Source of the DNA: Lunularia cruciata
Taxonomy: Eukaryota; Streptophyta; Marchantiopsida; Lunulariales; Lunulariaceae
Direction of reading: 5' to 3'
Assembly (NCBI GenBank): GCA_948567375.1
Contig: OX419758.1
Coordinates: 47,011,473-47,075,472, forward strand
Length of the DNA: 64,000 bases
Every line of letters begins with the position of its first letter. Position 1 is the first letter of the stretch. Under the pieces are notes generated by a model. That model was not told where the DNA came from. It ran no database searches and worked only from the letters and a program-made list of their open reading frames with translations. A program made the position numbers and the translations under genes. Shown piece after piece: positions 7,559 through 51,603 of this stretch.

Positions 7559-7560
<2 letters not shown>

Positions 7561-7636: not shown

Positions 7637-7639
<3 letters not shown>

Positions 7640-8280: not shown

Positions 8281-8650
8281 GCCAAGCAAGAAATCCCCAT
8301 CCCAACCTCTCCTCTCCTAAAAGATCCCTACCTCATTCCAATGAACCCCACCTTAAACATCCCGACCTTAACAATCCCCATCTTGATCCTTTCCCTCCTT
8401 AGCAATCCTCATCTTGTTATGGCAATCCCATCACTAGCAATCCCTGCCCTATTGAAAATGATCTCCACCCTACCAACAATTCCTCTCTTGAATCTATTTG
8501 GGTTGACATTACCCTCCATTGCTTCTAGCAATCCCCCACCCAACTTCCAAATTTTCTTTGCAATCCCACACATTTATTATCAGGTTCATGCAAGATTACT
8601 ACTAAAGCATAACGTCTTGTTTGAACAACTTACTCCTCTTCTATAATGCA
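8281..8650 (+). repeat. C-rich stretch with recurring CAATCCC
   Basis: A pyrimidine-rich segment in which CAATCCC or AATCCCC recurs many times, often preceded by AG. The open frame 8341-8646 is a Pro/Leu/Ile-rich product of this low-complexity composition and is unlikely to be a gene. Confidence 0.4.
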
Positions 8651-15967: not shown

Positions 15968-16413
15968 TGTCACGCCATTTGTAGTGTTGGATCTAGATTC
16001 CTTGGACCCTGGAGTTCCGATGATAGTAGTTAGAGCCATTTTGGCAATTACTCATAGACTACTTTTTGACGGTCAGATTTTGTGTTCCAAATACTAACTA
16101 CATGGTGGGGCCCACCGTCACTTACACCGTCTATACCATTGGGTGTGCCGTCAGTGGGACCATTGGGATGAGACCTAGGTGGAAATCAGTAGTATCCCTT
16201 GGGAGTGCAGCTCTAGAGAGCTCACTTCTCTATTATTGAGCTTTTGAGTTCCTAGCTAGAGTGGACAGAAAGTTGGTGAGCGTCACCTGGAGTCTCTTAG
16301 CTAAAGTGGGTGTGACTTGACTATAATCAATGCACTATTGTTGGCAAGTTGTTGAGGACTAGTTAAGTACTTAACTGATTGAGTTGATTCAAGTTATAAA
16401 CAATATGATTACA
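15968..16413 (+). repeat. MetR repeat A (5' copy of MetR-1)
   Basis: 446 bp from TGTCACGCCATTTG to GATTACA. Same length and ends as 29921-30366 (minus) and similar to 20751-21199 (minus) and 49525-49964. It contains GGTGGGGCCCACC at 16104-16116. Confidence 0.85.
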
Positions 16414-17429
16414 ATAGAGAAGTGAGTTAGGGGGAAATTGGGTGTAGGAACGGCAAGTGTTGGTGATATTTCCAAGCTTGGTAGATTGTGGTGTCTTGAT
16501 TGAGTTGTTCAGATTTCCTTAAGAGAGATTGTGTGTGGAAGCGCTAGCAAAATTTAGAGCTAGAGAGAAACAATTTTCAAGCGGTAGTTGTGATTTTGAG
16601 CTCAAGAGATGAAAGCAAGACCAATTTGTTGTGAGTTGAGCTCAAAAAGTGAAATTGAAGGTGGAGTTGGGAGCAGATCCTCATGAATTAGAGATTAGAC
16701 AAAACTTATTTTTCCAATTTGGCTCAAGTGAAGAGTTAGTTGAGGATTTAGAGGTCAGCCAAATTTAGGGATTTACATCAAATTTTATGTCAAATTTATG
16801 TCAGATTTAAGTCAGATTTTGTGAAGGGTTTACATCAAATCTTGGCAAGAAGATCCCTTTCTTAGTGATCCTTATAGCCCAAGAAGTAGATAAGTGTTCC
16901 AATTATGTCAAATGCCAAATGATTGCAGAGTCAATCTTGTGTTTTTTTATGAGATGGAAGGTTTTTGTTTAGATTTCTTGTGATTGGACCCCCTCCATTC
17001 TATGCTTCTTGTTTGTGCACCGTGTTTATATGAGGTGCCCTGAATTTAGAGCATTTGTGCTTTGGTGTGCTCTTGATAGTGAGGCTGGAGTGATGACCAG
17101 TCAGACTATCTATGTTTCTCTTTGGTGAGGCAAGAAGTGATGACTTGTAGACCATGAGAGTGCGTGTTGTGATGGCAGGTTACATGTTGCCTTTTCCCTA
17201 GTATAGTTGTCTTAGTTAGAGTTACATTAGTGGGTATTGTTCCATTAGTGTTGGCACTTTGTGGTGCTTGGTTGGTGGCGTAGCACTTGGTGGTGTACTT
17301 GCGGTTTACTGTTGCAATTTGTGGTTTCGGTTTGCAATTGATGGTTTGTAGTTACTTTATCACGTGTTCATTGGGGATTCTAGAGGAGATAGTCCTGTAG
17401 TATGCAATAGGTTTACTCAAAGTGGCACT

Positions 17430-17438
17430 TGATATCAG
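17430..17438 (+). other. Possible primer site upstream of MetR-1 gag
   Basis: TGATATCAG, with TGGTATCAG at the same place in MetR-2 (28547-28555, minus): nine bases matching the initiator-Met primer site. It lies about 1 kb after repeat A, which is unusual. If real, the 5' LTR would be about 1.46 kb rather than 446 bp. Confidence 0.4.
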
Positions 17439-17456
17439 CTTGTATCTCAGGTCCTA

Positions 17457-18720
17457 ATGAGGGAGGAGATTGACTCTCAGTTGGAGTTTGACATTGGAGC
17501 TGATCTAGTTGAGAGTGCACTTGGCATATCCACACCATTGTTGTGGGACATGGATGAGATTTATGGGGCCTCCAAAGGCCCTAGGCATTACTCTAGTGCA
17601 ATGGGTACCATTGAGTTGGATGACTTCATCCAAGAGTTTGATAGTTAGTGTGATATGCAGCAGATGCAAAACCGGACTTTGTTTATACCTTTCATGGCAT
17701 GGAAGGGGTTGTTTTAGCATTTGGAGGGTCCACCAATGGATAATTACCATGAGTTCAAGAGAGCTCACTTGGAAGAGATTTAGTCATGGAGAAAATATTG
17801 GTCTCCAAACTATATCTCTATCACTTCAGGCTTGGTTGCCAAGAGTAGATTGGGAGTACCCACAATTTCTAGCTCCAATAGTGTTGGTGGAGCTAGTGGA
17901 GGTGCACAAGCTAGAGATAATGCTACTACAAGTGGAGGTAGCACTACAGGAGGTGGTGCATTTTGTGGTTTAACCCCATGGTGGAGTTCTTCCAGTGTTT
18001 GAGGTAGAATTACTAGGGAGTGCAGACTGACAAGCTGAGAAGCTTGCAAGAGTTCCAATGGAAGGTTGGAGAGAGCCTATGCAAGGCATACACTCGCATG
18101 AGGCAGCTGATCAATTTCATTCAGGGAGTTATTGAGGCCCAAGCAGTCTAGTTTTGGTATGGGATATTGGACAAGGAATTGAGATGTAGAGTTCATGATG
18201 CTGCATTGTTACAAGCGACTTTGCCCACTTTGGTAGTGGTCTTTGGTTTGGTTGAGCATATTAAGCTCAACATGGTGAAGGAGAGAGTGGTGACATCTGC
18301 ATTTGGTAGGGAGACCTCATCCAAAATTGTGACTTCTTCTAGAGTGTAACAGAGTGCACCATGTCCAGTTGGTTTTTCAGGACAAGGTGGACAGCCTAGA
18401 TTCTATGGCATGAGTGGAGGGCCTATTGTAGTTAGACCGTTACTTTCATTTTTGGATCAGCAACTAGTGAGTAGTGGTGTTGCTTGTTGGACTTGTGGTG
18501 GACCTCATCACAAGAGAGAGTGCACTCAAAGACCTAATACCTTAAGTACATCACAGCTAGCATAAAGGCAATGTGAGCATTGCCATAGATTTGGTCACAT
18601 TAGTGACCGGTGCTTTGACCTACACTCGGAGTTTTAGAATGGTAGGGCTACTATGGTAGGTGGTAGAGGAGATCTAATTCATGGAAGAAGAGGTGGTGGT
18701 AGAGGATCTACACCTAGTAG
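17457..18720 (+). pseudogene. gag: MetR-1 gag
   Basis: Starts at ATG 17457 (MREEIDSQLEF), followed by the conserved block LLWDMDEIYGASKGPRHYS. The middle is frameshifted and broken by TAG stops. Two zinc knuckles survive near 18,482-18,525 (ACWTCGGPHHKREC) and 18,570-18,615 (QCEHCHRFGHISDRC). The second is a canonical C-x2-C-x4-H-x4-C, so the protein would have bound element RNA. Confidence 0.78.
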
Positions 18721-19139
18721 AGGTGAAGTACCTGCCCTTAATTCTAATATAGCCATGGCTACTCGTATTGAGCAGTTGGAGTAGAGATTGGCTAGCATGG
18801 CCATCGCTCAAATGAGATCAGATTTGGGTGCTGAGGCTTCCAACCTCATATGTTAGTGATAGAGATGCTTTGGACTTCATGTGCAGAGCAACACAAGTTG
18901 ATGCATCTACAGCAGTGACTAGGAGTGCAGTACATGCTCCAAAGCCTAGAGGAGCATCGATGAAGTTGGACCCACAAAGAGGAGAGGTTGGGAGATAGGT
19001 CAAACTTCCCCAATCTTTCATGCTCTGTAAGGCCTTACAAATGTTATCCATGGCTCCTAAATATCCCGGTGCAGGTGTGGTAGGTGGTGATGGGGTGCAT
19101 GATGGACTACCTACTAGTTAACCACCTGCTACTCTATGC

Positions 19140-19905
19140 AAACTAAGTCTAGCATAATGTTGGAGGCGGCTCAACTGATTATGCGCTATTTGTTATTTTT
19201 AGCTAGTGACATGTGTACATTGGAGTTGACCTAGCCCTAGTGTTTTCATTGCCTGCCATGCCTTGTGAGAGTACAGATGTGGTTCCTACTACTAGAGCAA
19301 AGATGGTTGATAGTGGAGTTGACTTGGTTGAGGAGCATGGGATCCGCTCAGCGACCAATGGTTTATAGCAGACAACCGTGGCTAGATTGGAGGAGTTACT
19401 AGCTAGACCGGCCTTTGAGAGAGTGCGGTTCACACCTAGTATTGTCTTATTGGATAACCAGAGGGGAATTTTCCATTTGGTGGGACCTTCGATACACTAC
19501 AGAGAGTCTTATTAGACTCTAGTGCGCAACTCCTCATGTTGGGGAAGGCTGCAATTGTCGGTCTAGGGTTACGTAAGACCAATGTAGAAAGATGTACATT
19601 TCAGATCCAGACATCTCTAGGTGGTGGTGGTTTAACACAATACATCACATGCGGGGAGTTGTTGTCCAGGTTCAACCTAGTCACTCGATTGATAGCTTGG
19701 TGGTGAGAGCTCATGCTATTACGACAATAGTTGAGTCATATGATGTGCTACCTGGTGGAGTAGTGCTATATCCCATGGGTTTTAGCATCAACTATTGGGA
19801 GGAGACAACCTCCTCTAGACCAGGTTGGTAGTCAGGTGAGGGACAAGTATGTTGCCTACAAGTATGCTTTAGTAGTGGCAGTCTTGGCTCATTATAGTCC
19901 TGTGA
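19140..19905 (+). pseudogene. MetR-1 protease region
   Basis: Collinear with 26853-26097 of MetR-2. The active site reads LLDSSAQLLMLG near 19,507-19,545: the Gly of the expected D-S-G is replaced by Ser, so it is inactive. It ends at the truncation. Confidence 0.72.
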
Positions 19906-20159: not shown

Positions 20160-20645
20160 TCGTTGTAATTTTCTTTTTTCTCTCTAAGAATAGACATGAT
20201 GCCTAATTATGAAGCTTACAAATAAGAGGTTGTGTGTAGACCTGATATTAATACTTTGAGCCTAGTTGTTTGCCCAATCACCAAATCTTCTAATCTTATT
20301 TCTAACATTCCTTCTATTGGGTAGAGGATGTGCAACCTAACCTATCACAACATGCACTCTTTGTCTACTATTCATCACTTCTAACCTTACCAAGGAGAAA
20401 TGCATAGCACACTTATAAGGAAAGAACCTAAGCATAGTGCCCGCATACCAATCCAAGCAAATTAGGCATATAATCAAGCATGGAGAGGATCCAAACACAA
20501 GAATTTCAGCAAAACTCTCCATACATTTATTGAAAATGAGCTTTAGAGCATCCTTGCTTTGTCCATAAATTTATTTCAATCTTATACTCCAAGATGCATA
20601 CTATCTATACTCCAAAATTGCATCCAATTTGTACTCCAAGTAGGT
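20160..20645 (-). repeat. Rep-E copy 1, part beyond MetR-2
   Basis: Minus-strand text matches 54,040-54,540. Shared blocks include GGATTGGT with GTTGTGAT or GTTATGAT and CCTTCTA-T-GGTAG. The conserved frame 20522-20337 shows LDWYAGTMLRFF, opposite LDWCASIALKFF in the other copy. The rest of this Rep-E copy resumes at 30,367, so MetR-2 inserted within it. Confidence 0.72.
20641..20645. repeat. MetR-2 target-site duplication, left
   Basis: TAGGT, matching TAGGG at 30367-30371 in four of five positions; supports one insertion spanning 20646-30366. Confidence 0.6.
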
Positions 20646-20648
20646 GTT

Positions 20649-20750
20649 GTGCGTATATACATCGCTACACAACATACATCGCTGTCAACATCATACACTA
20701 TAGAAGCACAACTCACACATAAGTCATACATAGACTCTAAAGTGCCACAA
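20649..20750 (-). repeat. MetR repeat B, terminal copy
   Basis: 102 bp, minus strand, running from TTGTGGCACTTTAGAGTC to GTATATACGCAC. Nearly identical to 21401-21502 and related to about 51505-51598 in MetR-3. It forms the 3' end of the element. Confidence 0.85.
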
Positions 20751-21199
20751 TAATCAGATTGCTTAACACTTTCAACTCAACTCAACTCAGATCAGTACTT
20801 GATCTGTCACTCTATAAACTGCCAACCAATTGGGCACTGATTATAGTCAAGCCACACCCACTTGAGCATAGAGAATCCAGGTGATGCTCGCCGGCCTCTA
20901 TCCACCATAGCCAGGAACTCGAAGGCTCAACATCAGAGAAGTGAGCTCTCTAGAGCTCACCTTCAAAACTATACCCCTGGACTCGAGCTAGCACTGGAAC
21001 CCTAACGGTCCCACTGACGGCACACTCGACGGTGCAAACGGTGCAAAGTGATGGTGGGCCCCACCGTGAAGTCAGTACCCCGACACAAAATCTAACCATC
21101 GGAAAGTAGTCTCTGAGAAATTGATGAAATAACTCTAATTACTGTCAATGGAACTCCAGTGTCTGAGCATCTAGATGTGGAACTACAAATGGCTTGATA
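20751..21199 (-). repeat. MetR repeat A, 3' copy
   Basis: 449 bp, matching 29921-30366 from its altered start (TATCAAGCC for TGTCACGCC) to CTGATTA. Directly followed by repeat B at 20750. Confidence 0.85.
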
Positions 21200-21200
21200 G

Positions 21201-21394
21201 CTGTCATGCGTATATACATCGCTACACAACATACATCGTTGTCAACATCATATCAGATTGTCAGATTGTATCAAATCAAATCAAATCAGATTATCGGAAA
21301 GTAGTCTCTGAGAAACTGCTAGAATAACTCTAACTACTATCACTGGAACTCCAGTGTCCAAGCAGCTAGATGCGGAACTACAAATGGCGTGACA
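21201..21394 (-). repeat. MetR partial repeats A' and B'
   Basis: 21283-21394 is the first 112 bp of repeat A. It is followed, in element orientation, by a run of GATTT/GATAC-type short repeats and then by the last ~52 bp of repeat B (21201-21252). It looks like a truncated extra A-B unit lying between B and A. Confidence 0.75.
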
Positions 21395-21400
21395 ACTATC

Positions 21401-21502
21401 GTGCGTATATACATCGCTACACAACATACATTGCTGTCAACATCATACACTATAGAAGCACAACTCACACATAAGTCATACATAGACTCTAAAGTGCCAC
21501 AA
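21401..21502 (-). repeat. MetR repeat B, internal copy
   Basis: 102 bp, the first repeat after the coding region and next to the polypurine tract; almost the same as the terminal copy at 20649-20750. Confidence 0.85.
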
Positions 21503-21513
21503 TCGCCCCCCTA
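21503..21513 (-). other. MetR-2 polypurine tract
   Basis: TAGGGGGGCGA on the minus strand, immediately before repeat B. By the usual rule the 3' LTR starts next to this tract, which would make the LTR B plus A rather than A alone. Confidence 0.65.
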
Positions 21514-21676
21514 GTTGGCGGTTAGGTCCCTCTAACTCCAGATAGCCATCTACTCTAAGTATATGGTATACCCTCTAATGGGCAAAGATCAGGAGGCCGG
21601 GTGCTATGGAGCCCCATCGTTAGTCGCCTGTCTGCAATCTATACCATATAAAGAATGAACTAGCTATAGGTCAAGT

Positions 21677-21811
21677 ACATCTAGGACATAACCACTATCC
21701 CTGAGGAACCACCGTGAGGGGAGGAGTCATACATGCCATATGCCATCCTCTAGAACAACTATCACACACTAACATAGTAGCAGCTCCACCAGAAGAGCCA
21801 CATAACATACA
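21677..21811 (-). pseudogene. MetR-2 PHD finger at the polyprotein C-terminus
   Basis: Minus-strand reading from residue 127 of the frame starting at 22189. The ligand pattern is C-x2-C-x11-C-x2-C-x4-H-x2-C-x14-C-x2-C, an exact C4HC3 PHD pattern, with the typical CDSCSRGWH centre and WLCPRC end. One TAG lies just before the final WLCPRC block. PHD fingers read histone H3 tails. Here it stands where chromoviruses carry a chromodomain, so a role in choosing integration sites is a reasonable inference. Alternative zinc folds (RING, LIM) fit the spacing and the conserved Trp less well. Confidence 0.85.
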
Positions 21812-21859
21812 CCTCAAGCCTGCACGTACAAGTGCCAAGCTTGGGTCCATAGTACCATC

Positions 21860-22400
21860 AATGTTTGGGAGGTGGCATGGCGCACAATTGCATACATGAT
21901 CCTTCCAAACAACACCATCACGTCCTTCTAACACAAGGACTCCAGATGGCAAAACCTCACGCACTCTCAAGATAGTGCGGCCTGTAGAAACATCAAGTGT
22001 CGTCGGTGCTGTTTGTTGTAGATATACATAGTTGCCTGGATGAAATCGACGGATTGAGGGTCTATAACCTCCTCCTTGAATGGTAGTATAGCGTAAAGTA
22101 TCTTTATGCTGAGCAATTGCCAAGTTCTCAAAGGCCATCGGCATCACTCTCCAAAAGATCTCTACCTGCTGAGAACATGCATCATCCATACATTGGGGTC
22201 ATCCAAGTCCAAAACTACAATAGCATCTTGACAAATGGCTGCAAGTAGATCTAGATCTCGTCCATAGAGTAGAAAGTATGGAGAGAAGGATGCTAAGGAA
22301 ACTTGCCGGCTGAACCGATAGCCCATGGCCAACCAAGGTAACTAGAGATCCCAATCTCCCAAGTGGCCTCTTTGCAAACCATACTTCCGCAATCCTCTCT
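21860..22400 (-). pseudogene. MetR-2 integrase C-terminal region
   Basis: Includes SPYFLLYGRD near 22,290 (the usual TPYELLYGR block after the catalytic core). After a frameshift near 22,190 comes a barrel-like segment (FHPGNYVYLQ, ILRVREVLPSGVLVLEGRDG) and the conserved-looking linker NCAPCHLPNIDGTMDP leading into the PHD finger. Binds DNA during integration in the family. Confidence 0.75.
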
Positions 22401-22407
22401 TCACCGT

Positions 22408-22959
22408 CTAAACCACTCTCTCTGCTAAGCCATCTGCCTCAAGGTGATCTTGGGATGTAGTACGATGATCAATCAAAACCTTGTCACACAAGACCTGAAA
22501 CTCCCCCAAGAACTTTGTACCCTGATCAGTCAAAACCTCAGCTGGTGCACCAAAATGACTAAGAACTCGATCCAGGAACGAGCAAGCTATCCCTTCACTA
22601 GACTTGTCAGGAAGTGCCACCAACTCAATCCACTTGGAGAAGTGCTCCACCATCACTAAAATATACTGATGATGTCTCACAGTCAACGGTAAAGGTCCGG
22701 CAAAGTCCAAACTCCAATGGTAACCCAATCCCATGATAGGTAATGGGTGTAACTGTGGCATAGGAGCATTGAATGATGCTCTAACTTGGTCACAAACCAC
22801 ACATCTGGCAACAAACTGCTGTACCTCGGCCGCATACCACGCCACCAATAATGACTCTGGAGTAAGCTCAATAACTCCTCCTGTATGCATTGACAAAGAT
22901 ACCACCAAAGCCTCTACAAATATACACAAAAAGGCCGATGCATGCCAACCTGGCACCAT
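22408..22959 (-). pseudogene. MetR-2 integrase, zinc and catalytic core
   Basis: Integrase inserts element DNA into the genome. The zinc-binding half is recognisable at FVARCVVCDQVRASF. Core motifs are WSLDFAGPLP (first Asp), VLTDQGTKF (second Asp) and ADGLAERVV (Glu). The whole 183-residue segment is open and in the same frame as RT, and ends in TAG. An intact DDE core shows this is not a tyrosine-recombinase element, despite its terminal-repeat layout. Confidence 0.88.
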
Positions 22960-22989
22960 CTCCTCATCTGTCTCACCATGCCAACGTGC

Positions 22990-23372
22990 TCCGGTCTGAT
23001 CCTACTGGCTAGGACATGGGTTTCTACTCAACCCATCTGCATCACGGTTCACCACTCCAGGTCTGTGAACAACCGTGAAATCATACTCCTGTAAAATCAA
23101 AGCCTATCGTGCAAGCTTGTCGGACTCCATCAACCACTTCAGCGGCTGATGATTGGTGATGAGAGTGAAGGGGTTACCAAACAGGTAACATCAATAATGT
23201 GCTACTGCCCAAACTGCTGCCAAGCACTCTCCCTCATATGAACTATACTTTGCCTCCACTGAATTGTTGGAGCGACTAGCATAGGCCACCACAAACTCCT
23301 TCTCCTCATCATCATGTTGGGTGAGCACTGCTCCAAGCCCCAACATACTCCAATCAGTGTGAACCTGAAATG
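22990..23372 (-). pseudogene. MetR-2 RNase H
   Basis: RNase H removes the RNA strand after reverse transcription. It reads [31 protein letters not shown], then TNHQPLKWL (usually TDHQPLKWL, so a catalytic Asp is now Asn) and HRPGVVNRDADGLSR. Interrupted by TGA (one at a Trp site, one before the domain) and two TAG. Confidence 0.87.
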
Positions 23373-23373
23373 G

Positions 23374-24375
23374 TCATCCCTTGATTGGTCTTCTCAAAAT
23401 AGGAGCAGATATCAACCTCTCCTTGAGCTCTACAAAAGCTCTCTCTTGCTCATCTCCCCAACACCACTCCTGTGTAAGCTTGGTCAGCTTTGTCAAGGCC
23501 TTGGCAATGGCACTAAATCCTCTAACATAGCGGCGATAGAAGTTTGCCAACCCAAGGAATGCTCGCACTTTGCTCACATCCGTAGGCCGAGGAATACGTG
23601 CAATAGCCTCCACCTTGGTCTGCTGAACACCAAGTCCTCCGGTGTAGATAGTGTGACCCAAATACTCAACCTGATCGTGGAAGAACCTACACTTCCCAGG
23701 ATGTAGTTTGAGTCCATGAGATCTCAACCTCTCAAACACCTCCAACAACTGTCTCTCATGCTCCTCCATAGTAGTGCTGTAGACCAAAATGTCATCAATA
23801 TAACACCGAGCAAAATCCAATCTAGCTAGGATTCTATCCATGACCCTCTGGAACTCAGCAGGAGCGTTCTTCAACCCAAATGGTAAGAACCTCCACTGAT
23901 ACAACACATCCTTGCCGTGAGGATCAATAGCCCAGAATGTTGTCTTGGACTTCTCCTCCTCCCTGATCGGCAACTGATGATATCCCGCTCGAAGATCCAA
24001 AGTACTGAAGATCTTTGCATGCCCAATTGCATCAAAAATCTCCTCTGGTGTAGGCATGGCATACCGATCAGCCCTGGTCTGTCGGTTGATAAGACGGTAA
24101 TCTCCACACATCCGCCTATTTGTATAGTTGCCATGCATATCCTTCTTGGCTGGCATCACTGTCGCTGATGCATACTCTCCATGTGAAATCTCCACCAAAC
24201 CAGCCTCAAAAAGGTCACTACTCCGGCTCTGAATCAATGTCCTCTCCATATCACTACATCGATAAGGACGTCGGAAAACTGATGTGTCACTAGTCAGCTC
24301 AATCCGTATACCAGGTCCCTTCAGAGCACCCAAATCCTTCATATTGAAGGCAAAACAACTCGTGTGACTCCTCAA
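23374..24375 (-). pseudogene. MetR-2 reverse transcriptase
   Basis: 333 open residues covering the entire RT: YRCSDMERTLIQ near the start, CGDYRLIN, FSTLDLRAGYHQLPI, FLPFGLKNAPAEFQRVMD, the catalytic CYIDDILVYS, then GHTIYTGGLGV and FLGLANFYRRYVRGFS. This is the best preserved part of the element, with all RT hallmark residues present. It follows the methyltransferase in the same frame after a linker that reads TWEPDLGPKLTGEERRRV. Confidence 0.93.
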
Positions 24376-24780
24376 GAACCTCCAAACCCTCCGTCTTTCC
24401 TCTCCAGTAAGCTTGGGTCCAAGATCTGGCTCCCAAGTATCCTCTATAACTGTAGTAGGAGTGGAAGACGTATTGACTAGCTGCTACACTGGGCCCTTGG
24501 GAGCAATAGTGTCATGCTCCCGACCACTAGAGGTCCCAACCTCTGTGTGAAAAACTCCCTCCACTCTGGCTACAAGCTCCACACGTCCTCTGGCTGCATC
24601 CCATGTGGACCAAGGGTGTAATCCAAGTAGCCCACGCTCACCTAAATGGACTCCAAGTAGACCACTCTCCCTAGTAGCTACTGGATGTGTCCCAAGAATA
24701 CCATGTCCACTCGGTCCATCGCCCCCAACATGTGCCTGAATTGTCTCGATAGGCACAAGGCTCATAAGTGTCCGAGTGGT
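24376..24780 (-). pseudogene. MetR-2 linker between methyltransferase and RT
   Basis: Same frame as both neighbours. Gly/His/Leu-rich with near-repeats (LLGVHLGERGLLGLHPW). One TAG at about 24,481. No domain recognised. Confidence 0.6.
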
Positions 24781-24809
24781 GATGCCGATCAAGCACATCC
24801 TATGCTGCT

Positions 24810-25764
24810 CTGCCAAGCCAAGGCTCACAATCCATGTCAAACAGTTCAGGTCCATAGCCTGACCTAACACCTGACGCCTGGATGCCTCTGACACTGCTAG
24901 AATAGCGGTAATACCGGCACAAAAACCCATCACCTGCTCTCTCTCATCAGCGTTGGGCTCCACCAATTGCTATAACTATGAGTCCCAAACAAGTCCAGGT
25001 CCTCCCTCTTGAAAAGCATGAGAGCCTGGGAAACTCATGAGTGTGGGAAATGCAGCTCTAGGCTGTCCAACTAGGTTCACCACTGCCATAGGTGACCTAT
25101 CAGCCACTACCACTGTCTGAGACTGATGCCCAGCATCCAAGATATCATTAACAAGAATGTGGTCTAGTTGTTGAATCCCATCATAACTACGTTGTAGAAC
25201 CTCTCTAGGTAAGAGGTTCATCCACCAAAGACAAAGATGATGAGCCCATGATCCCACTTTGGCTGCTAACAATACAACAAGTTCCATCTAAGAATGGACC
25301 TGATGTGTACTCGCCACCACTCTAGTGCAAGAATCACCCAACAAAGGAACATTCTCCAAAAGGTAAGTTGGAGAAACAGATTGATGAACCTAGAGATGTT
25401 GTAGTATTTGTAACATCTCCCAAAACACACCAAAACGAGGATCCTAAAGACCCAAACCTCTACCAGCACGTGTATGTCCCTAACATGGCCATCCAGAAAT
25501 CACCAAGTGAATAGGCCCATGTCTCTTTAGGTCATGCACCCCCAGTAAGGAAATGTCTCCTGGCAGGGCCTTCTGGTAACCTTTGACTGCTGACATCGGT
25601 AATAACTCTGGATACCGATAGGCCAAGTGTGCAACATGATGTAGAGAGACTCGCCTAGCAGTCTCATCCCTCTCTACATGCAAGTACCTCTGTACTTGGA
25701 TACCCGCCTGTAACACCACAGCTAGTCTAGTGCTGATCCCACCAAACAACTCCAATAGGCATAT
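24810..25764 (-). pseudogene. MetR-2 DNA (cytosine-5) methyltransferase domain, DNMT3-like
   Basis: Transfers methyl groups to cytosine C5. Motif I: LLELFGGIST at 25,761-25,732, SAM-binding, followed by AGIQVQRYLHVE as in DNMT3. Motif IV: HLVISGWPC, with the catalytic Cys codon at 25,483-25,485. Motif VI: ENVP at 25,345-25,356. Motif VIII-like: KVGSWAHHLCLWW. C-terminal part: EPNADEREQVMGF, then motif X-like LGQAMDLNCL near 24,860. The order I-IV-VI-VIII-X is canonical, not rearranged as in plant DRM. About six TAG stops interrupt it, one replacing the Gln that normally follows Pro-Cys. Same frame as protease upstream and RT downstream. Retrotransposon DNMTs are known from charophyte algae and dinoflagellates. 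I am confident of the fold, less of its exact class. Confidence 0.9.
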
Positions 25765-26088
25765 CCCCTCTACTGGATACTGCCAAGCAATGAGTGTGGT
25801 ATCCAGAGGTGTCAAAGCAATCGCCTCTGGAGGCTCATCCTCACACTCATCTCCTAATGGCACAAAGGCTCCACTCCAAGCCTGTTGCACCAACTGATCT
25901 GCATGCTGCTGCAATGCCTCCTCTGAACTCCACAATGGAACATCCAAGGTGGATGGAACAATTCCACTTGTACTCCAAAGCCGAGTGATTTCCTCTGGTA
26001 CTAGAGTATCCTCTGCATGGGCGTTCCCCTCCAACAAGTCACCAGGCCAAGTAATTGCACCGCTGAAAGCCAAAACTGATGTTGCCAT
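25480..26088 (-). pseudogene. MetR-2 segment from protease to DNMT motif IV
   Basis: 202-residue open segment from an internal Met to the TAG right after the catalytic Pro-Cys. The first ~105 residues are an acidic, Trp-containing linker with no recognised domain. DNMT motif I begins at residue 109. A TAG at about 26,098 separates it from the protease in the same frame. Confidence 0.8.
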
Positions 26089-26097
26089 GGTCCCGGA

Positions 26098-27195
26098 CTA
26101 TAGTGAGCCAAGACTGCCACTATTGAAGCGTACTGGTAGGCGACATACCCGTCCCTCACCAGACTGCCAACCAAGTCTATAAGAGGATGTCTCCTCCCAA
26201 TAGTCAATGCTGAAACCCATGGGGTATAACATTGCTCCTCCAACTAGCACATCATATGACTCAGTTATTGTCGCAATAGCCTGAGCTCTCACCACCGAGC
26301 TATCAGTCAGATGACCAGGCTGAACCTGGACAACAAGCTCTCCACGTGTGATGTACTGTGTTGAACCACCACCAAGAGATGTCTGGATCTAAAATGGACA
26401 CCTCTCCACATCGGTCTTCCGTAACTCCAGACCGACAATTGCAGCCTTCCCCAACATAAGGAGCTGTGCACCAGAGTCTAACAAGACTCTCTGTGGTGTA
26501 TAGACCTTCCCTGAAGGTCCCACCAAACAAAAAATCCCCCTCTGGTTATCCAATAGGACAACACCAGGTGTAAACCGCACTCTCTCAAATGCCGGTCTAG
26601 CTGGAAACTCCTCCAGTCTAGCCGTTACTGCCTGCCATAAACCACAGGTCGCTGAACGGATCCCATGCTCCTCAACCAAGTCAGCTCCACTACCAACCAC
26701 CTCTGCTTTAGTAGTAGGAACTGCACCATCCCTACTCTCACACAACGTGGCAGCCAACTGGAACACTAGAGCTGGGTCAACTCCCAATGTAAACATGTCA
26801 CTGGCTGGAAACAAAGGATGCCGCATAATCAGCTGAGCCGCCCCCAACATCATGCTAGACTCAGTCTATGTAGTGGCAGGTGGCTGACTAGCAGGTACTC
26901 CATCAGGTACTCCATCACCACCTACCACACCTGCACTGGGACGTCTAGGAACCCTGGATGTTATCTGTAATGCCTCAGATAGCGTGAAAGACTGGGGAAG
27001 TCTGACATGTCTCCCAACCTCTCCTCTCTCTGTGTCCAACTCCACTGATGCTCCTTTAGGCTCTGGAGCACGTACTGCACTCCTAGTCATTGCTGCAGAT
27101 GCATCCACCTGTGCCGCTCCGCACATGAAGTCCAAAGCATCTCTATCACCAGCACCCGAATCTGATCTCCTTTGAGCAATAGCCATACTAGCCAA
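26098..27195 (-). pseudogene. MetR-2 gag C-terminus and aspartic protease
   Basis: Reads through several open segments in one frame. The protease active site is VLLDSGAQLLMLGKAAIVGL, with D-S-G at 26,470-26,478. The downstream part (VVRAQAIATITESYDVLVGG) probably completes the protease fold. Upstream (27195-26866) is the gag C-terminal tail. Stops are TAG only in this stretch. MetR-1 covers the same region at 19,140-19,905. Confidence 0.8.
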
Positions 27196-27299
27196 TCTCT
27201 ACTCCAACTGCTCAATCCGAGTAGCCATAGCTGTGTCAGAAGTAAGGGCAGGTACTGCACCCCTACTAGATGTAGATCCTCTACCACCTCATCCTCCAT

Positions 27300-28528
27300 G
27301 AACTGGAGCTCCTCTACTACCAGCCATAGTGGCCCTACCACTCCGTAACTTCGGGTGTAGGTCAAAACACCGGTCACTAGTGTGACCAAATCTGTGGCAA
27401 TGCTCACACTGCCTCTGTGCTGGCTGTGATGCACCAGAGGTATCAGGTCCGCTGCCCTAAGTACACTCTCTCCTATGGTGAGGTCCACCACAAGTCCAAC
27501 AAGCAACACCACCACTCATTGCCTGCTGCTGATTCAAAATAAGGGTAAGGGTCTAACTCCACTAGGCCCTCCACTCGCTCCATAGGATCTGGGCTGTCCA
27601 CCCTATCCTCGAAAACCAACTGGGCGTGGTGCACTCTGCTGCACTCTAGAAGAAGTCACAGCCGTGGATGAGGTCTCCCTACCAAATCCAAATGTCACCA
27701 CTCTCTCCTCCACCATGTTGAGCTCAATACGCTCAGCCAAACCAAAGACTACTGCCAAAGTGGGCAAAGTAGCCTACAGCAACGTAGCATCACGAACTCT
27801 ACGTCGCAACTCCCTATCCAGTATCCCATACCAAAACTGGACTGCCAGGGCCTCAATAACTCCCTGAGTGAAATTGATCAGCCGCCTCATGCGAGTGTAT
27901 GCCTCGCGTAGGCTCTCTCCAGCCTTCCGCTGGAACTCCTACAAGCTCCTCAGCTTGTTAGTCCGCACTCCCTGGTAGTTCTGCCTCAAACATAGGAAGA
28001 ACTCCACCATGGGGTTAAACCCCGGTACTACACCACCTCCTGCAGCGGTACCTCCACTCGTAGTAGCACTATCTCTAGCTAGTGCACCTCCACTAGCTCC
28101 ACCAACACTACTCGAGCTAGAACTCGTGGGTACAACCAATCTACTCTTGGCCACCGAGCCTGAAGTGATGGAGACATAGTGAGGAGACCAATACTATTTC
28201 TATAACTCAATCTCCTCCAAATGAGCTCTCCTGAACTCATGGTAGTCATCCATCGGCGCTCCAAGTGTTGAAATAACCCCTTCCATGCCATGAAGGGTGT
28301 GAACAAAGTCGGGTTCCGCATCAACTGTAGATCACACCAACTATCGAACTCCTGGATGAAGTCATCCAACTCAATGGTACCCACTGTACCAGAGTAACGC
28401 CTAGGGCCTTTGGAGGCCCCATAAATCTTGTCCATGTCCCACAACAACGGTGCGGACACACCAAGTGCACTCTCAACTGAATCAGCTCTTGTATTGAACT
28501 CCAACTCAGAGTCAATCTCCTCCCTCAC
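27300..28528 (-). pseudogene. gag: MetR-2 gag
   Basis: Begins at the codon equivalent to the ATG of MetR-1 and MetR-3, here GTG (28,526-28,528), with REEIDSELEF and LLWDMDKIYGASKGP. It continues through a Ser/Gly-rich linker near 28,100. Zinc knuckles lie at about 27,463-27,503 (CWTCGGPHHRREC) and 27,367-27,408 (CEHCHRFGHTSDRC, canonical CCHC). At least two frameshifts and several stops. The altered start codon could be a private mutation or a cloning-time change of this copy. Confidence 0.8.
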
Positions 28529-28546
28529 TGGGACTCGAGATACAGG

Positions 28547-28555
28547 CTGATACCA
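28547..28555 (-). other. Possible MetR-2 primer binding site
   Basis: TGGTATCAG, nine bases of the initiator-Met tRNA primer site, about 20 bp upstream of gag but 1.36 kb after repeat A. The remaining three bases of the classical 12-mer do not match. Confidence 0.4.
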
Positions 28556-29920
28556 AGCACCACTCCGAGTAAACCCACTACGTACTGCAGGGCTAACTCC
28601 TCTGGAATCTCCAAAGAACTCCGTCGTGAACACGTAATTGCAACAGCAAACCCGAACCACCAACCGCAACCGCAAGTCGCAACCGCAAGTGCCAACACCA
28701 CCACGTGCCAACACCACCAAGCACCATCTACTAATGTAACTCTAACCGAGATAACTACACTAGGGGAAGGGTAACCTGTAACCTGCCATCATAACACGCA
28801 CTCTCATGGTCTGCAGGTCATCACTTCTTGCCTCATCGGAGAGAAACAAAGGTAGTCTGATTGGTCATCACTCCAGTCTCACCACCGAGAGCACCAACGC
28901 TCAAAATTCAGGGCACCTCACACAAACGTGGTGCACAAACAGGAAGCAGAGAATGGAGGGGATCCAATCACAAGAAATCTAAATGAAAACCCTCCATCTC
29001 ATAACACAACATGGGACTGACTCTGCCACCATTTGGCATTTGACATAAGAGCAGTTCGTCTCTAAGTCCTAAGCTACCAAGATCACCAAATTTGGGATCA
29101 AACTGCCTCTCCTAGCCAAAGCTACATGTGTATAGATAACAATGGCGCAGTCACTAGGACAACAAGTGAGGGTAGACCAATTGGCTAGGGCACCAGTCTA
29201 GGAACAAGAGATCTAGGGGTCAAACCCTATTGCGCACAATCTAGCAAGAAAGGCAGATTTTGCCAACCAATGACCAAGATCTACACTAAACTAGCTAGCC
29301 TCACGCCAACAAGCTGGCTTGCTGGCCCTTCTAGGCCTTTGTAGCCTCTCATAGCCCACAGCCCTATGCCTCAAAGCCTCGAAACGCCAAAATTCAGCCA
29401 AATGAGGCCTTTCTTGTTGCCACTTCGAACCTCCTCCAAAATTGGCAAAACTTCTCCAAATCAGCAAAACTCCTCCAAATCTGGCCAAATAGCAAAAACT
29501 CCTCCAAATCTGACATAAACCCTAAAGATGGCTGTCCGCCAAATCCCCCGCTAACTTTCCACTCAAGCCAAATTCACAAAACGGGTTTTTCCAAATCACA
29601 ATTTCATGAGAAGAGCTTCCCAACTCCACCTTCAATTTCACTTTTTGAGCCCAAATCGTAGCAAATTGGTCCTGCCTTCACCTCCTAAGCTCAAAATCAT
29701 AACATTGCTTGAAAATTGCTCCTTCTTTACTCGAAATTTGGCCAGCGCTTCCGCACACCGTCCGCCTAACTACCAAATTTGCATCAACTGAACGAGCTTC
29801 TGCACACTAGGGTACCACAAAACTTGAATCGAGCTACCACGATCCACCAAGCTTGGAGATACCACCAACACTAAACGTTCCTACACCCGATTTCCCCCTG
29901 ATTTCACTTTTCTGATGTAA
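28556..29920 (-). other. MetR-2 leader
   Basis: About 1.36 kb between repeat A and gag, similar to 16414-17429 of MetR-1 and 49965-51340 of MetR-3, with no sustained frame. If the TGGTATCAG at its end is the primer site, this is part of a long LTR; otherwise it is an untranslated leader. Confidence 0.5.
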
Positions 29921-30366
29921 TCAGATTGCTTAACACTTTCAACTCAACTCAACTCAGATCAGTACTTGATCTGTCACTCTATAAACTGCCAACAACTGGG
30001 CACTGATTACAGTCAAGCCACACCCACTCAAGCATAGAGAATCCAGGTGACGCTTGCAGGCCTCTATCCACCATAGCCAGGAACTCGAAGGCTCAACATC
30101 AGAGAAGTGAGCTCTCTGAAGCTCACCTTCGGAACTATACCCCTGGACTCGAGCTAGCACTAGAACCCTAACGGTCCCGTTGACGGCACACTCGACGGTG
30201 CGAACGGTGCAAAGTGACGGTGGGCCCCACCATGAAGTCAGTACCCTGAACACCAAATCAGACTGTCAGAAAGTAGTCTCTAAGAAACTGCTAGAATGAC
30301 TCTAACTACTATCACTGGAACTCCAGTGTCCGAGCAGCTAGATGCGGAACTACAAATGGCGTGACA
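29921..30366 (-). repeat. MetR repeat A, 5' copy of MetR-2
   Basis: 446 bp, TGTCACGCC to GATTACA. Contains GGTGGGGCCCACC and several ACCGT/ACGGT motifs. Its outer end abuts Rep-E. Confidence 0.88.
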
Positions 30367-32085
30367 TAGGGAATTTTGCCTTTTTCATGTGGAAATCTTT
30401 GTGAGACTTAGATGGAAATATTTTTTTGTTATAGTTTTGATTTAAATTTTCTAGAACTCAATAGAAAGCATGAGAGATACACTTTCCAATGATATAAAGT
30501 AGACCTCAATCTAACTAGTATGGCTTACTTAACAAATCTCAAACTTTGGCAGATTTTTGTGCTTTTCACCTAAATTTTGAAATCCATAATTGAGTATTTA
30601 GTCCTGATTTTTGGTAGGCTTTCAAAAAAAAGTTGTCTTAAAAATATCCATAATCCTTACTAACAATCAAGCAACATAAACTTTTCAATCATAATCATAA
30701 ATGGAAGAATTCACATTCAATTATGATTGAAGGTAGAAATGCTCCATTCAACTTATGATAATAATTTAGTACAGTTTTTTGCATCAACTCTCATTATTAA
30801 TAAACCTTGACACAAATTTTTTTTTATATTAGTTGGTTATACCTCATTCTAGACCTCTATGAACTTTGAAAGCTTGTTCGAGCCCAATCCTTAGATAAAG
30901 ATCAATTCCCAAGTTGTGCTAACTATTGAGCTCTACAAACCAAACTAAACGTGATCAAAGACCTTGTGTTATCTATTTAAAGAATTTACTTGAAATGCTT
31001 GCATAGAGGCACAAGACCTAACCACCAACAATACTCTAAGTTTTGATGGCTTAATTCAAATAGAGCTTGAGAAGCAACCAAAACTCCAAACCTAATCATA
31101 ATCTTCTCCTCAACAATTTCATTTCCAATGCTCAAACTTAAATCAATCACATCAAATTTGATATTGACTCAAACATTAAAAAAAATAAACTCAACACGAT
31201 AAGCAATTTTTTCTCTAACCCTACTAAAACATCATGAAAAGATATGACAAAACTCTTAAAATCTTCAAAGTTGTTCATTTGGATATGAGTTCAATCCTCT
31301 TGATTCAATTGGTCTTAACCTATTGAAAAACTAATCAAATCACTCATTTTTTTACTCCAAACCATAACATATTAGCTCTTCTCTTCAATTGTAGTCTACT
31401 TTTGCCAAATGCTATCCGCAAAGTCCAACAAAGCTTGAAAATTGTAGACTTCTCTTGTTGTGATCTATTCACTTGCAATTTTGTCACTTAGCTTTTTCTT
31501 TTTTGACCAATGGACCACACAACTCAACCTTGAAGCCCTTGAATGAAATTAAGTATTTCTCCTTCTACAAAAGCACTTAAATTAACAAGTCCCAGACCTA
31601 TCCATAAGTAAGCACATGAAGGACAATAAGACACCATGGTCTCTATCGCCAACACCATAAATGCAGGCCCAAAATGTGCTACCATCCAAGCTCAAATGTG
31701 ATCACGGTGCAAAATCTGAAGGTTGATGAGAAAAGGATTCAAGAATAGCATATCAAGAGCATGGAATATCTTTTGTTCCAACTCTTCATCCAGTGCTCTA
31801 GCTCCCGTGCTCTAGTACAACTCTCATTCCCAACATCCTTCTTCTGCTCAAGACTCCTAAACTAAAACACACCTTGTCTATCAAATCTCAACCACATATA
31901 CACATCAAAGCCCTCAAAGAGAACACAATAGTAATCCACATGGCCAATCACTTGAATGTACATAGATTTCTCACTTGACAATAACTTAATTATGAGATCT
32001 ATCATACAATCAACTCCAATAATATAGAAATAAACTGCACTAACTACTCTTTCATTGGCTATACAAACCACAGTATAACAATGCA
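30367..32085 (-). repeat. Rep-E copy 1, main part
   Basis: The reverse complement matches 52,345-54,030 block by block: GGAGTTTTGGT near 31,050, GATCTCATAATTAAGTTATTG near 32,000, and CATCTAAGT then AAAAAGGCA at the MetR-2 junction. The minus-strand frame 32086-31862 (SMYIQVIGHVDYYCVLFEGF) is matched by SMYMYMIGHMYYGVVLFEGF in copy 2. An old dispersed repeat with one recognisable ORF of unknown function. Confidence 0.72.
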
Positions 32086-37238: not shown

Positions 37239-38217
37239 TAACAAAGAAATCCAATGCAACATGACCTTCATTACAAAAGGATCATCACATTTGTGAATCC
37301 TTTGGATTACATCTATATTGAATTTTATAACCTGTGATTTTTATATTTTCATAGCTTGCTAGAGGTGGTGACCTTACACTCTTCTAGGAATGACTTTGCC
37401 TAAGAGGTTAAATACAAAAAAATAGACTTTCAGCTTTTTGATACTTTATCTCATATTTAGCCACCTTCAACATGTATCTTTGTGGGACTGGCCAATTCTT
37501 ACCACATTATTGCAAATTGAGACAACAATAAGTCATTATATTTTAGGCACTATTATCAAGGATACACTCCTTGGAGTGGCTAAAATTGAGATAGCATGAG
37601 TCCATGAATGTCATCAAGGAATCAGGTACTAGATGTCATTCAAACCTCATATGAACATAGAGCTTTCTTGAGAAACTAGAAGAAAGATGTTGAAGTACTC
37701 TCTACACTACATAAAAATCTCAAGATGGATTTGACCATCTTGAGAGAAATTTTTTGAAGGGTATGGAACTACCTACTTGATGCCTATATTTGAACAAAGA
37801 GGAAGTTGGGTTTAAGAATGTCAAACATTAGGCACTTCTTACCTCCTCTTTGTTGACTAACACCGCACTAACTAGAACTATCAACCAATGGTTTGTGGTT
37901 GAAAAGGAGGACACTTAACAAAATTTCAATGATAAAGATGTTTTATAGAGGTCCATGTGAAGCATTCTATTGAACTAGGAAACTAAAGAGCAATCTTCCT
38001 CCTTGGTCACCATTGAGCTCTTTGTTGAGCTTACCATTAGAAGGATGCACACACAAACTGCCTGCATGAGAAGAGAGTATGACTCCCAACTTGATAAAAT
38101 CTAAGGACAACTCAAAGCTACCATCCAAAGGCAAGTGAGAATCATAATTCTTTCCATGCATGGTGCTTGCTTATGATCTTTTTAGCAATTTTCATATGAA
38201 GCGGATCTTGTAGCTTG
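37239..38217 (+). pseudogene. TatC region upstream of gag, weak coding trace
   Basis: From about 37,790 a frame with many stops reads KEEVGFKNVKH, then LVTIELFVELTIRRMHTQTACMRREYDSQL near 38,000. Probably the N-terminal gag region; no domain recognised. Confidence 0.35.
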
Positions 38218-38279
38218 TTATCTTTGACCATGGCAAATCATGCTCTCTTCACACAACAAAACTACAAAAGTTCAAGAGG

Positions 38280-38755
38280 CAAGATAAGGAGGATGACCTT
38301 GATACTTTCTTAAGGGAATTTGATGCCATTTGGTCACTAATGGAAAGATGTAGATGCCAACCAGCTATAGATATTTCCAAGCCTATTAAGGAAAAAATCT
38401 TGGAACTAGTACATGCATGTGAGCAAGGATCCAATGAATATGGTAGACTAGCAAAAAAATTTGGTCAATTCTTGAATCATTTTTGTGAGTCAAACTACAA
38501 GGCAAATGTGTTTGCCATGCTCAACAATCTCAAGCAAAAACAAAATGAGAAACTAAGGGACTATACAAAGAAGTTCCAAAGTGTTCTAAGTAGAGTACCA
38601 AATAGAGGTGCCGCCTTAGGTTACTTAGATGCTCAAGTAGTGGCCTGGTTCCTACAAGGCTTACCCATAGAACTTCATGTTTTTTCCAAGGAACAAGAGC
38701 ATGATACATTGGCAAAGGTGATAATGTTGGCCAAGTTGTACAAATTGGTCTGACT
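38280..38755 (+). pseudogene. gag: TatC gag
   Basis: The 137-residue open part from 38,340 contains QKQNEKLRDYTKKFQSVLSR and VVAWFLQGLP, the typical C-terminal half of a plant gypsy capsid domain (the LRDY-x-KRF and FLxGL blocks). TGA ends it at about 38,752. Further decayed frames follow to 40.2 kb, including a possible knuckle region (39,040-39,110: AYCVGKIGHANIE) with lost Cys residues. Confidence 0.7.
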
Positions 38756-45360: not shown

Positions 45361-45363
45361 ATT

Positions 45364-49524: not shown

Positions 49525-49964
49525 TGTCATGTCATTTGTAGCATTGCACCTAGATTGCTTAGACTTTGGAGTAGTAGTGTTTGTAGTGAGGAGTATTTTG
49601 GTAGTTACTCATAGATTAATTGTTGATGGTTAGATTTGTGTTTGGGGTATTGATTACATGGTAGGGCCTACCACCACTTAGCACCATTTGCATTGTCAAA
49701 TGTGCTATTGGCAAGACCATTAGGGTTAGAGACCAAGGGGTTTACTTTTGAAGTGCAGGTCTAGAGAGCTCACTTCTTTAATGTTGAGCCTTCAAGTTCT
49801 TTGCTATGGTGTAGAAAGGTCAGTAAGCATCACCTAGATTCTATTAGCTAGAGTGGGTGTGGCTTGATTATAATCAATGCACAATTGTTGGAAAATTATT
49901 GAGTGATAGATCAAGTCTTGATTTGATTGAATGTAATTTGAATTGTGTTAACAAATAGATTACC
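49525..49964 (+). repeat. MetR repeat A of MetR-3
   Basis: About 440 bp, aligned with the other A copies but strongly C-to-T changed (for example GGTAGGGCCTACC for GGTGGGGCCCACC). Confidence 0.82.
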
Positions 49965-51504
49965 TCAAAGAAGTAAGGTCAAGGAGAAATTGGGTGCAAG
50001 GACTGAAGGTGTTGGTGGTATCTCCAAGCCTTGCTGATTGTTGGTAACTTGATCATGGTCCAGAGTTTCCTTAAGAGTGATTGTGTGCAAAAGATCTTTG
50101 AATTGATGTAGATTGGTAGTGAGGCAGATGGTGTGCAAAAAAGCTAGCCAAATTTTGAACAAAGAGAAGCAATTTTCAAGTGATAGTTGTGATTTTGAGC
50201 TCAAGAGGTGAAATTAGGATCAATTTGGTGCAAGTTGAGTTCAAAAAGTGAAATTGAAGGTGAAGTTGGGAACCCAACCATGTGAATTACAAATTTGGAG
50301 AATCATGTCCGTCAAGTTTGGCTCAAATGAAAATTTAGTAGAGGATATGGAGATAAGCAGACTTTAGGGATTTATGTCAGATTTTACATCAGATTTTTGT
50401 TGGAGTTTAATATCAAATTTTGGTCAGATTTGGAGGAGTTTTGCTAGATTTGGAGAGGGCTCAACATGGCAGATTTTGGCTTGAGTTAGAGGAGTTTTGC
50501 CAAATTTAGAGTGGGTTCAAAGTGGCAAGGAGAAAAGCCTCATTTGGTTGTCTTGAGGTTTTGAGGCATAGTGTTGTGGGCTATGAGAGGCTATGAAGGC
50601 CAGCAGAGTCATCTTGTTGGCATGAGGCTAGCTAGTTTAGAGTAGATTTAAGTCATTGTTTGGCAAAATCTGCCCACCTTGCTAGATTATGTGCAATAGG
50701 GTTTGACCCCTAGATCTTTGGTTCCTAGATTGGTGCCCTAGCCAATTGGTCCACCCTCACACATTGTCTTAGTGACTGTTCCATTGTTATCTATACACCT
50801 ATAGCTTTGGCTAGGAGAGACAATTTTATCTTATTCTTGGTGATCTTGGTAGCTTAGGAAGTAGATAACTCATATTATATCAAATGGTGGCAAAGTCAGT
50901 CTAGTGTTGAGATGGAGGGTTTTCATTTAGATTTCTTATGATTAGATACATCCATTCTTTTCTTCTTATTTTTGCACCATGTGTGTATGAGGTATCTTGA
51001 CTTTAGAGCATTGGTGCTTTAGTGTGTTGTTGATAGTGAGGCTGGAGTGATGACCAATCACACTTACTATGTGTCTCTTTGGTGAGGCAAGAAGTGATGA
51101 CTTGCAGATCATGAGAGTGCATGTTGTGATGGTAGGTTACATGTTAGAGCTAAATTAGTGGGTGATGTTTTGTTGGTACATTGGCACTTGGTGGGGTACT
51201 TACGGTGGTTACGATTGCAGGTTGTAGTTTGTGGTTACTTTGTCATGATGGAGTTCTTTGGGGATTCCAAAGGAGATAACGCTATAGAGACATTGTGGGT
51301 TTACCTACAATGGCGCTCGTTGCAAGCTTGTATCTCAAGTCCCAATGAGGGAGGAGATTGACTCTGAGTTGGAGTTTGACACATGAGCTAATTCAATTGA
51401 GAGTGCACTTGGTGTGTCCACACTGTTGTTGTGGGACATGGATGAGATTTATGGGGCCTCTACAGGCCCCAAGCGTTACTCAAGTATAGTGGGTACCATT
51501 GAGT

Positions 51505-51598
51505 TAGAGTCTATGTATGACTTATGTGTGATTTTTGCTTCTATAGTGTGTGATATTGACACCAATTTATGTTGTGTAGCAATGTATATACATATGAC
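51505..51598 (+). repeat. MetR repeat B of MetR-3
   Basis: Matches AGAGTCTATGTATGACTTAT through GTATATAC of the MetR-2 B repeats; forms the 3' boundary of the insertion. Confidence 0.82.
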
Positions 51599-51603
51599 AA
51601 ATT

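Follow-up and report, generated by a model that had tools for sequence, protein, structure and literature searches.

The window, 64,000 nucleotides of the Lunularia cruciata genome, carries on its minus strand, from 30366 to 20645, a Ty3/Gypsy-type retroelement (copy 1) in which a DNMT3-type cytosine-5 methyltransferase (MTase) lies between the protease and the reverse transcriptase (RT) (Table 1). Its identity as a real Ty3/Gypsy element with a DNMT3-type MTase is almost certain. The domains follow the Ty3/Gypsy order protease-RT-RNase H-integrase, and the Ty3/gypsy label given by an earlier sequence-only reading is supported for the coding domains by Pfam matches to RT, RNase H and integrase. 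The protease was recognized by its relatives and by the D-S-G motif of LLDSGAQ, which we take to be the mark of an aspartic protease; its open pieces gave no Pfam match at E<=1, and the gag stretch 27942-28193 gave none either. A D,D-35-E integrase, TG..CA ends and a short target duplication are all present, with the 3' end of copy 1 diverged, and the tyrosine recombinase that is the hallmark of DIRS/PAT elements is absent from the element, which has the integrase core instead. The integrase C-terminus bears a PHD finger, also found in two relatives described below (L001 and P0088). In Gypsy chromoviruses a chromodomain occupies this place.

Table 1. Copy 1, its parts and related copies, in positions of the window.
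Feature	Position	Strand	Remarks
Whole element (copy 1)	20645..30366	-	9,722 bp, TG..CA ends, degenerate; from termini and repeats
Target-site duplication CCTA, 5' side	30367..30370		
5' repeat A1	29918..30366	-	Starts TGTCACG, ends GATTACA; 91.7% (409/446) identical to A2
gag region	27942..28741	-	Broken across several frames; residue match by eye to N-terminal part of P0070
CCHC zinc knuckle	27292..27456	-	58-82% to knuckles of 12 relatives, 16-30 residues
Aspartic protease region	26392..26865	-	LLDSGAQ at 26484-26464; 45-52% to 12 best relatives
Linker, protease to MTase	25801..26388	-	Kept in relatives; 32-55% in 35 alignments of >=100 residues
DNMT3-type cytosine-5 MTase domain	24811..25800	-	Motifs I, IV, VI, VIII, X; 6 stops
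UAG-CAR-YYA leaky-stop motif, MTase/RT boundary	24478..24486	-	TAG CAG CTA; L001 equivalent TAG CAA TCA
Reverse transcriptase	23377..24483	-	YIDDILV at 23802-23782; RVT_1 E 9e-33 (Pfam)
RNase H	23194..23373	-	RT_RNaseH_2 E 5.8e-18 (Pfam)
Integrase core	22411..23001	-	D..D-35-E by residue places; rve E 1.5e-12 (Pfam)
Integrase C-terminus and PHD finger	21698..22198	-	Other frame, shortened by a stop; PHD E 1.4e-7 (Pfam); 63% to L001, 164 residues
Polypurine-tract-like AGGGGGG before B1	21502..21514	-	From the sequence
Repeat B1	21395..21503	-	99% to B2, 103 nt
Repeat A2	20752..21394	-	Tandem duplication (165-nt units, 195-bp spacing, 87%) over A2 start and B1 end
Repeat B2, 3' terminus	20645..20751	-	
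Target-site duplication CCTA, 3' side	20641..20644		
Copy 2, related element, 5' part	15968..19900	+	Stops just short of MTase zone; 82% over 3,027 columns (internal), 73% over 869 columns (repeat end)
Copy 3, internally deleted, A1 ... B	49525..51599	+	Target duplication AATT at 49521-49524 and 51600-51603

The remainder of the window holds debris of other elements. A further Gypsy-type element left protease, RNase H and a weak integrase match at 43310-46074 (+), protease-like and integrase-tail (SH3_Tf2-1) pieces of another one lie at 3978-4541 and 5673-6059 (+), and a retrotransposon gag fragment is found at 38214-38753 (+). Two similar reading frames of 137 and 133 amino acids occupy 2469-2882 and 6233-6634. 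No tRNA, Rfam match or host gene was recognized in the window.

A single minus-strand register of 1,682 codons (27456-22411) passes in order through the zinc knuckle, the protease region, MTase, RT, RNase H and integrase. The four MTase motifs that the sequence-only reading had placed in one register are indeed found there: motif I (LLELFGGIST, 25758-25729), IV (SGWPC, 25497-25483), VI (LLENVP, 25362-25345) and the X-like LGQAMDLN (24867-24844). Its shared frame of about 1,600 codons holds as a register but not as an open frame, which is broken by 16 stops (13 TAG, 3 TGA); six of these, all TAG, fall within the MTase zone between 25482 and 24972. Copy 1 is dead and unable to encode an intact enzyme. 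Between its repeats A1 and A2, 37 of 446 sites have diverged; 30 of these are transitions, 22 of them in CpG or CHG context, a pattern consistent with methylated cytosines having been deaminated in a plant-like genome. The observed/expected CpG ratio is 0.41 in the element, 0.22 in the MTase zone and 0.20 and 0.16 in the two flanks; since all five stretches measured are depleted (0.16-0.41) and the lowest value lies outside the element, the depletion is uninformative about the element's own enzyme.

An intact relative was obtained from a GTDB genome scan as a 9,285-base contig (CADCWO010000201.1, here L001) filed under a cyanobacterial MAG; judged by its domains, it is a eukaryotic retroelement. 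Its two ends (1-9285) have 127 identical bases in common, as in a circular or collapsed-repeat assembly. One open frame (3-3491) comprises the gag end, zinc knuckles, protease and MTase, and after a single stop a second one in the same phase (3492-6635) continues with RT, RNase H, integrase and PHD. Identity to the window rises from 32% in the protease and 46% in the MTase to 62% in RT, 75% in RNase H and 71% in the integrase, with 63% in the integrase C-terminus plus PHD. As RT is more conserved than the MTase in this pair, the MTase evolves faster and is not the most constrained part of the element. The relative P0088 is more distant from L001 in every domain (MTase 36%, RT 40%, integrase 45%), and the MTase therefore appears to have travelled with the element while evolving faster than RT.

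The stops at the MTase/RT boundary of the two DNA sequences, TAG CAG CTA at 24486 of the window and TAG CAA TCA at 3489 of L001, are at aligned positions. Both have in-frame coding continuing behind them and conform exactly to UAG-CAR-YYA, the tobacco mosaic virus (TMV) leaky-stop consensus (PMC2754532; also PMC4132726). Decay was not accepted as the cause of every in-register stop, because the one at 24486 looks like a leaky stop shared with L001; it alone among the 16 window stops matches the motif. Elsewhere in the window the 9-nucleotide sequence turns up five times, counting both strands; one of these (25268) lies in the element but out of register. Since YYA encodes Leu in the window and Ser in L001, conservation seems to act on the nucleotides and not on the residue (n=2). 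The distance from motif X to the stop is 119 codons in the window and 108 in L001; of 86 protein relatives with a recognizable motif X, 41 stop 86-141 residues beyond it without RT, 34 end sooner, some of them fragments, and 10 run further. Readthrough at this stop, predicted from its sequence, is likely. The MTase would probably be made at Gag level, with Gag-protease-MTase as the main product and RT-integrase-PHD as a readthrough extension. The sequence-only reading was right about the order, with the MTase between protease and RT, but the single frame that it proposed is divided by a leaky-type stop, and MTase and RT would probably be joined in one polypeptide only by readthrough.

Relatives of the MTase are numerous. 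A protein search with the 330-residue MTase zone covered 5.77 billion sequences, scored the 7,998 candidates sharing most words with the query and gave 68 matches at E<=0.01 (best 2.5e-143); within the set of 173 proteins collected, P0001 is 66.7% identical over 330 residues (E 2e-161). Organism names accompany 17 of the 68 matches (Marchantia polymorpha 10, Sphagnum 4, Calypogeia fissa 2, Riccia sorocarpa 1) and 16 of the 20 obtained with a longer query scored on its MTase part (Marchantia 14, Calypogeia 1, Sphagnum fallax 1), and bryophytes are the sole organisms among the named rows of the 109 listed by an MTase profile search. No angiosperm, fern or alga was found among the organism-named matches, which are a minority of rows in the MTase-zone and profile searches, and the three protein searches returned no Klebsormidium-named or host DNMT3 proteins. 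The viral contigs scanned contained no relative. From Marchantia polymorpha 24 protein clusters, not all of them separate loci, are listed across the two MTase searches. Four Streptomyces MTase loci from the GTDB scan (L002-L005), 27-36% identical to the family over short stretches, were set aside. As a warning to annotators, the label DNA (cytosine-5-)-methyltransferase is carried by at least three entries that look like transposon genes, namely P0006 and P0010 from Sphagnum and P0070 from Marchantia.

In 39 of the 173 collected proteins the MTase is joined to protease, RT, RNase H, integrase or zinc knuckle; these include eukaryotic gene models, possibly spliced by the annotator, and P0071, P0073, P0117, P0109 and P0145 come from assemblies or metagenomes. 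The same domain order is read continuously in these relatives and in the intact frame of L001. To judge from the moss and liverwort relatives and this one intact relative, the fusion is old and maintained. That the fusion is real had been argued earlier from the shared frame; the conclusion stands on the relatives, since a broken frame makes a weak argument. Over its 12 best alignments the window MTase shows 61-67% identity to relatives, against 45-52% for the protease over its own 12, and RT reaches 38-75% in seven alignments of at least 100 residues, from P0088 at the low end to bryophyte relatives at the high end. Six multi-domain relatives give 15 pairs; in 14 of them the MTase, by rounded percentages, is no less conserved than linker and protease, and in P0073/P0117 it falls slightly behind (protease 47%, MTase 46%). 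The pairs with P0014 are without protease. A second arrangement is seen in P0088 (RT-RNase H-MTase-integrase-PHD) and P0113 (MTase-integrase). In motif IV of P0088 the catalytic Cys is preceded by Ser instead of Pro (Trp-Ser-Cys), and the divergent metagenome MTases P0139 and P0146 have the same motif set, with FPCQGFSRA as motif IV.

The claim of a cytosine-5 MTase is borne out by motifs I, IV, VI and X, by the close relatives and by DNMT3A/B as top matches. The Pfam search, named in advance as a check, was divided: the open pieces of the MTase zone gave no match at E<=1, and the zone with X at the stops matched DNA_methylase at E 4.5e-4 and 20.2 bits, below the curated cut-off of 22 bits. 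Four of six relatives scanned pass this cut-off (P0070, P0077, P0113 and P0117; 33.9-43.8 bits), and the family was not seen at E<=0.01 in the other two, P0086 and P0088. Against the PDB, DNMT3A came first both in the single-sequence search (6e-12) and in the profile search (1e-21), in the latter followed by DNMT3C/3B (E 1e-19 to 2e-15), by chains 4onj and 4onq, called just DNA methyltransferase (5e-13 and 8e-12), and at lower ranks by DRM2 (2e-9), HhaI and DNMT2 (about 1e-7) and DNMT1 (0.8). The fold predicted for the relative P0001 (43-row alignment, mean pLDDT 89.6) had DNMT3A/B/C entries, some of them complexes with DNMT3L, as all 50 Foldseek matches listed, the best TM by target being 0.84. 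DNMT3 is thus closest among the solved MTases, with an unrearranged motif order, and on the partial human DNMT3A row together with the PDB and fold ranking we place the element MTase in the DNMT3 class. Identity to DNMT3A/DNMT3B, the top match in both sequence and fold and alike in conserved motif order, is 19-23% over the fold alignments listed; the element enzyme has PCQG in motif IV and ENVP in motif VI, whereas DNMT3A/DNMT3B have PCND and ENVV, and unlike them it has no regulatory domains visible beside it.

Of 188 aligned stretches from the 173-protein set, which are not independent genes, those covering a given motif mostly retain the Cys (96 of 99) and Pro (97 of 100) of motif IV, the Glu (115 of 124) and Asn (123 of 124) of motif VI, and an Arg of motif VIII (112 of 124). 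In a 43-row tree, in which 17 of 40 inner branches are well supported and long branches are joined, the window groups with Calypogeia, Marchantia and their kin (98/88), and P0088, P0113 and P0061 form a group nested inside the retroelement MTases, P0088 and P0113 being flagged as meeting long branches. The outgroups of this tree were the partial human DNMT3A and three bacterial-type rows, with no plant DNMT3, DRM, CMT or MET1 among them.

The two usual long terminal repeats are not found in the element. Its repeats are split, in the order A1, internal part, polypurine-like tract, B1, A2, B2, for which reason "Gypsy" is used here for the coding domains and not for the repeat layout. This A1-internal-B1A2B2 arrangement is the split-direct-repeat layout of PAT elements. 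Copies 1, 2 and 3 share one A1 base as their starting point (15968 in copy 2, 49525 in copy 3), and none of them has B behind A1. The two copies with both ends present, copies 1 and 3, have TG..CA ends and 4-bp duplications (CCTA and AATT) at boundaries partly chosen by hand; copy 2 lacks the 3' end. The B1|A2 junction is a near-palindrome in the window (CGATAGTTGTCA), in its duplicate there (TGACAGCTATCA) and in L001 (CGACAGCTGTCA). We consider the split-repeat layout very probably genuine, and the repeat data suggest a model in which opening a two-repeat circle between B and A would give the inserted form. Neither of the other two window copies has an MTase region, copy 3 being deleted through it; copy 2 was rejected as an MTase-free version, since it simply ends at 19900 before the MTase zone.

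On balance we favour the view that copy 1 is a dead copy of an old streptophyte Ty3/Gypsy lineage with a captured DNMT3-type de novo MTase, Gag-level production of this enzyme, self-methylation and a split-repeat circle. The lineage would have acquired its cytosine-5 MTase, of the DNMT3 de novo type, by capture. Working relatives would first make Gag-protease-MTase, which ends at the UAG-CAR-YYA stop and to which occasional readthrough would add RT-RNase H-integrase-PHD. Present at Gag level, the MTase would probably reside within the particle and could there methylate the DNA copies of its own element, either ahead of integration or in its course. On the integrase, the PHD finger would probably help to choose a chromatin site, and the integrated form would derive from circular DNA opened at the B|A junction. 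A bolder version is doubtful as a whole: an ancient, bryophyte-wide streptophyte Gypsy lineage with split repeats and an integrase, in which a Gag-precursor MTase made via a conserved TMV-type stop acts on the circle that the PHD-tipped integrase opens at B|A, with the arrangement RT-RNase H-MTase-integrase-PHD occurring in another lineage. If true, such a retroelement would, as part of its own life cycle, write chromatin marks and perhaps read them too.

Other explanations bear on the structure of the locus and on the role of the enzyme. It is next to impossible that a host MTase gene or pseudogene merely lies in or beside the element: copy 1 alone, with stops that hide the fusion, would allow it, but it is refuted by relatives, among them ones from several bryophytes, and by the L001 frame, all of which read through continuously in that order. 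A conventional LTR element with secondarily rearranged repeats has in its favour the polypurine tract before B1 and the CA end of A1 beside the leader, as if the LTR were B+A. Against it stand the common A1 start of the three copies, the absence of B after A1 in all of them, the termination of copies 1 and 3 in B with TG..CA ends and 4-bp duplications, and the DIRS-like layout reported for the algal element KnitGypsy-Dnmt3 (PMC5890265); we regard it as unlikely.

As to the role, methylation of the element's own DNA is the likeliest single function judged from the sequences, and we would call it plausible, somewhat short of even chances. The MTase might instead be a brake by which fresh copies are methylated and silenced by the host, so that damage is limited and the element is tolerated in the long term, an option raised in the discussion of de Mendoza et al. 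(2018; PMC5890265). The conservation of catalytic residues across distant relatives agrees with this, as do the prevalence of CpG/CHG sites among the A1/A2 transitions and of TAG among the in-register stops, as expected of a methylated, decaying copy. However, ordinary host methylation alone would give the same decay pattern, CpG depletion is stronger in the flanks than in the element, and selection for a group-level benefit is harder, which leaves the brake improbable. Less probable still is a domain that acts on RNA, or serves as a nucleic-acid-binding or assembly domain of Gag, and is not a DNA MTase. The Gag-level position, the Ser of P0088 before the catalytic Cys and the inactivity of the Klebsormidium domain on DNA in yeast, called inconclusive by its authors (PMC5890265), could be read in this way, but the catalytic Cys, the ENV Glu and the motif VIII Arg are kept in most rows, and the top matches are DNA-type DNMT3 enzymes, ranking above DNMT2.

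DNMT capture by a Gypsy element is already known from KnitGypsy-Dnmt3 of Klebsormidium nitens, to which a figure legend ascribes a DIRS repeat structure with Gypsy domains (de Mendoza et al., 2018; PMC5890265). The sequence-only reading had cited this work correctly for the alga; the dinoflagellate elements that it also invoked, SymbioDIRS-Dnmt3 and SymbioLINE-Dnmt, are DIRS and LINE, not Gypsy (PMC5890265). In the yeast assay of that study DIRS MTases were active and the Klebsormidium Gypsy MTase showed no activity, nor did human DNMT3B (PMC5890265). A survey from 2025, citing the 2018 paper, describes some DNMT3 members as embedded in LTR Copia and DIRS retrotransposons of streptophytes and dinoflagellates (PMC12344493), thus having Copia where the earlier paper has Gypsy (PMC5890265). 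In a literature search, mostly of titles and the beginnings of abstracts, we met no report of a DNMT-bearing retrotransposon from land plants and none of a leaky stop or PHD finger for the DNMT-bearing Gypsy kind.

Compared by description, KnitGypsy-Dnmt3 and the window element have in common Gypsy-type domains, a DNMT3-type MTase in the coding region, the lack of introns and DIRS-like repeats (PMC5890265). They differ in host, an alga as against the land-plant relatives found here, and the window element has a leaky-type stop after the MTase and a PHD finger; for KnitGypsy-Dnmt3 the text speaks of a "Pol polyprotein ORF", and the word PHD does not occur in the main text (PMC5890265). SymbioDIRS-Dnmt3, with two repeat sets and two domain orders, and SymbioLINE-Dnmt likewise represent retrotransposon-captured DNMTs, but use tyrosine-recombinase or LINE machinery in place of the D,D-35-E integrase (PMC5890265). 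With DIRS/PAT elements the window element shares the repeat layout, and differs from them in that an integrase replaces the tyrosine recombinase and 4-bp target duplications are present. The element is accordingly of a known kind, the DNMT-carrying Gypsy elements, here more widely spread, and we found no report of its spread in land plants or of its expression layout. Placing the MTase at Gag level before a leaky stop, together with the PHD finger and the split repeats, yields concrete, falsifiable predictions. The reported range of DNMT-carrying Gypsy elements, one alga, now takes in land plants. Among these is the tractable model Marchantia polymorpha, in which what a retroelement gains from a DNA MTase is directly testable.
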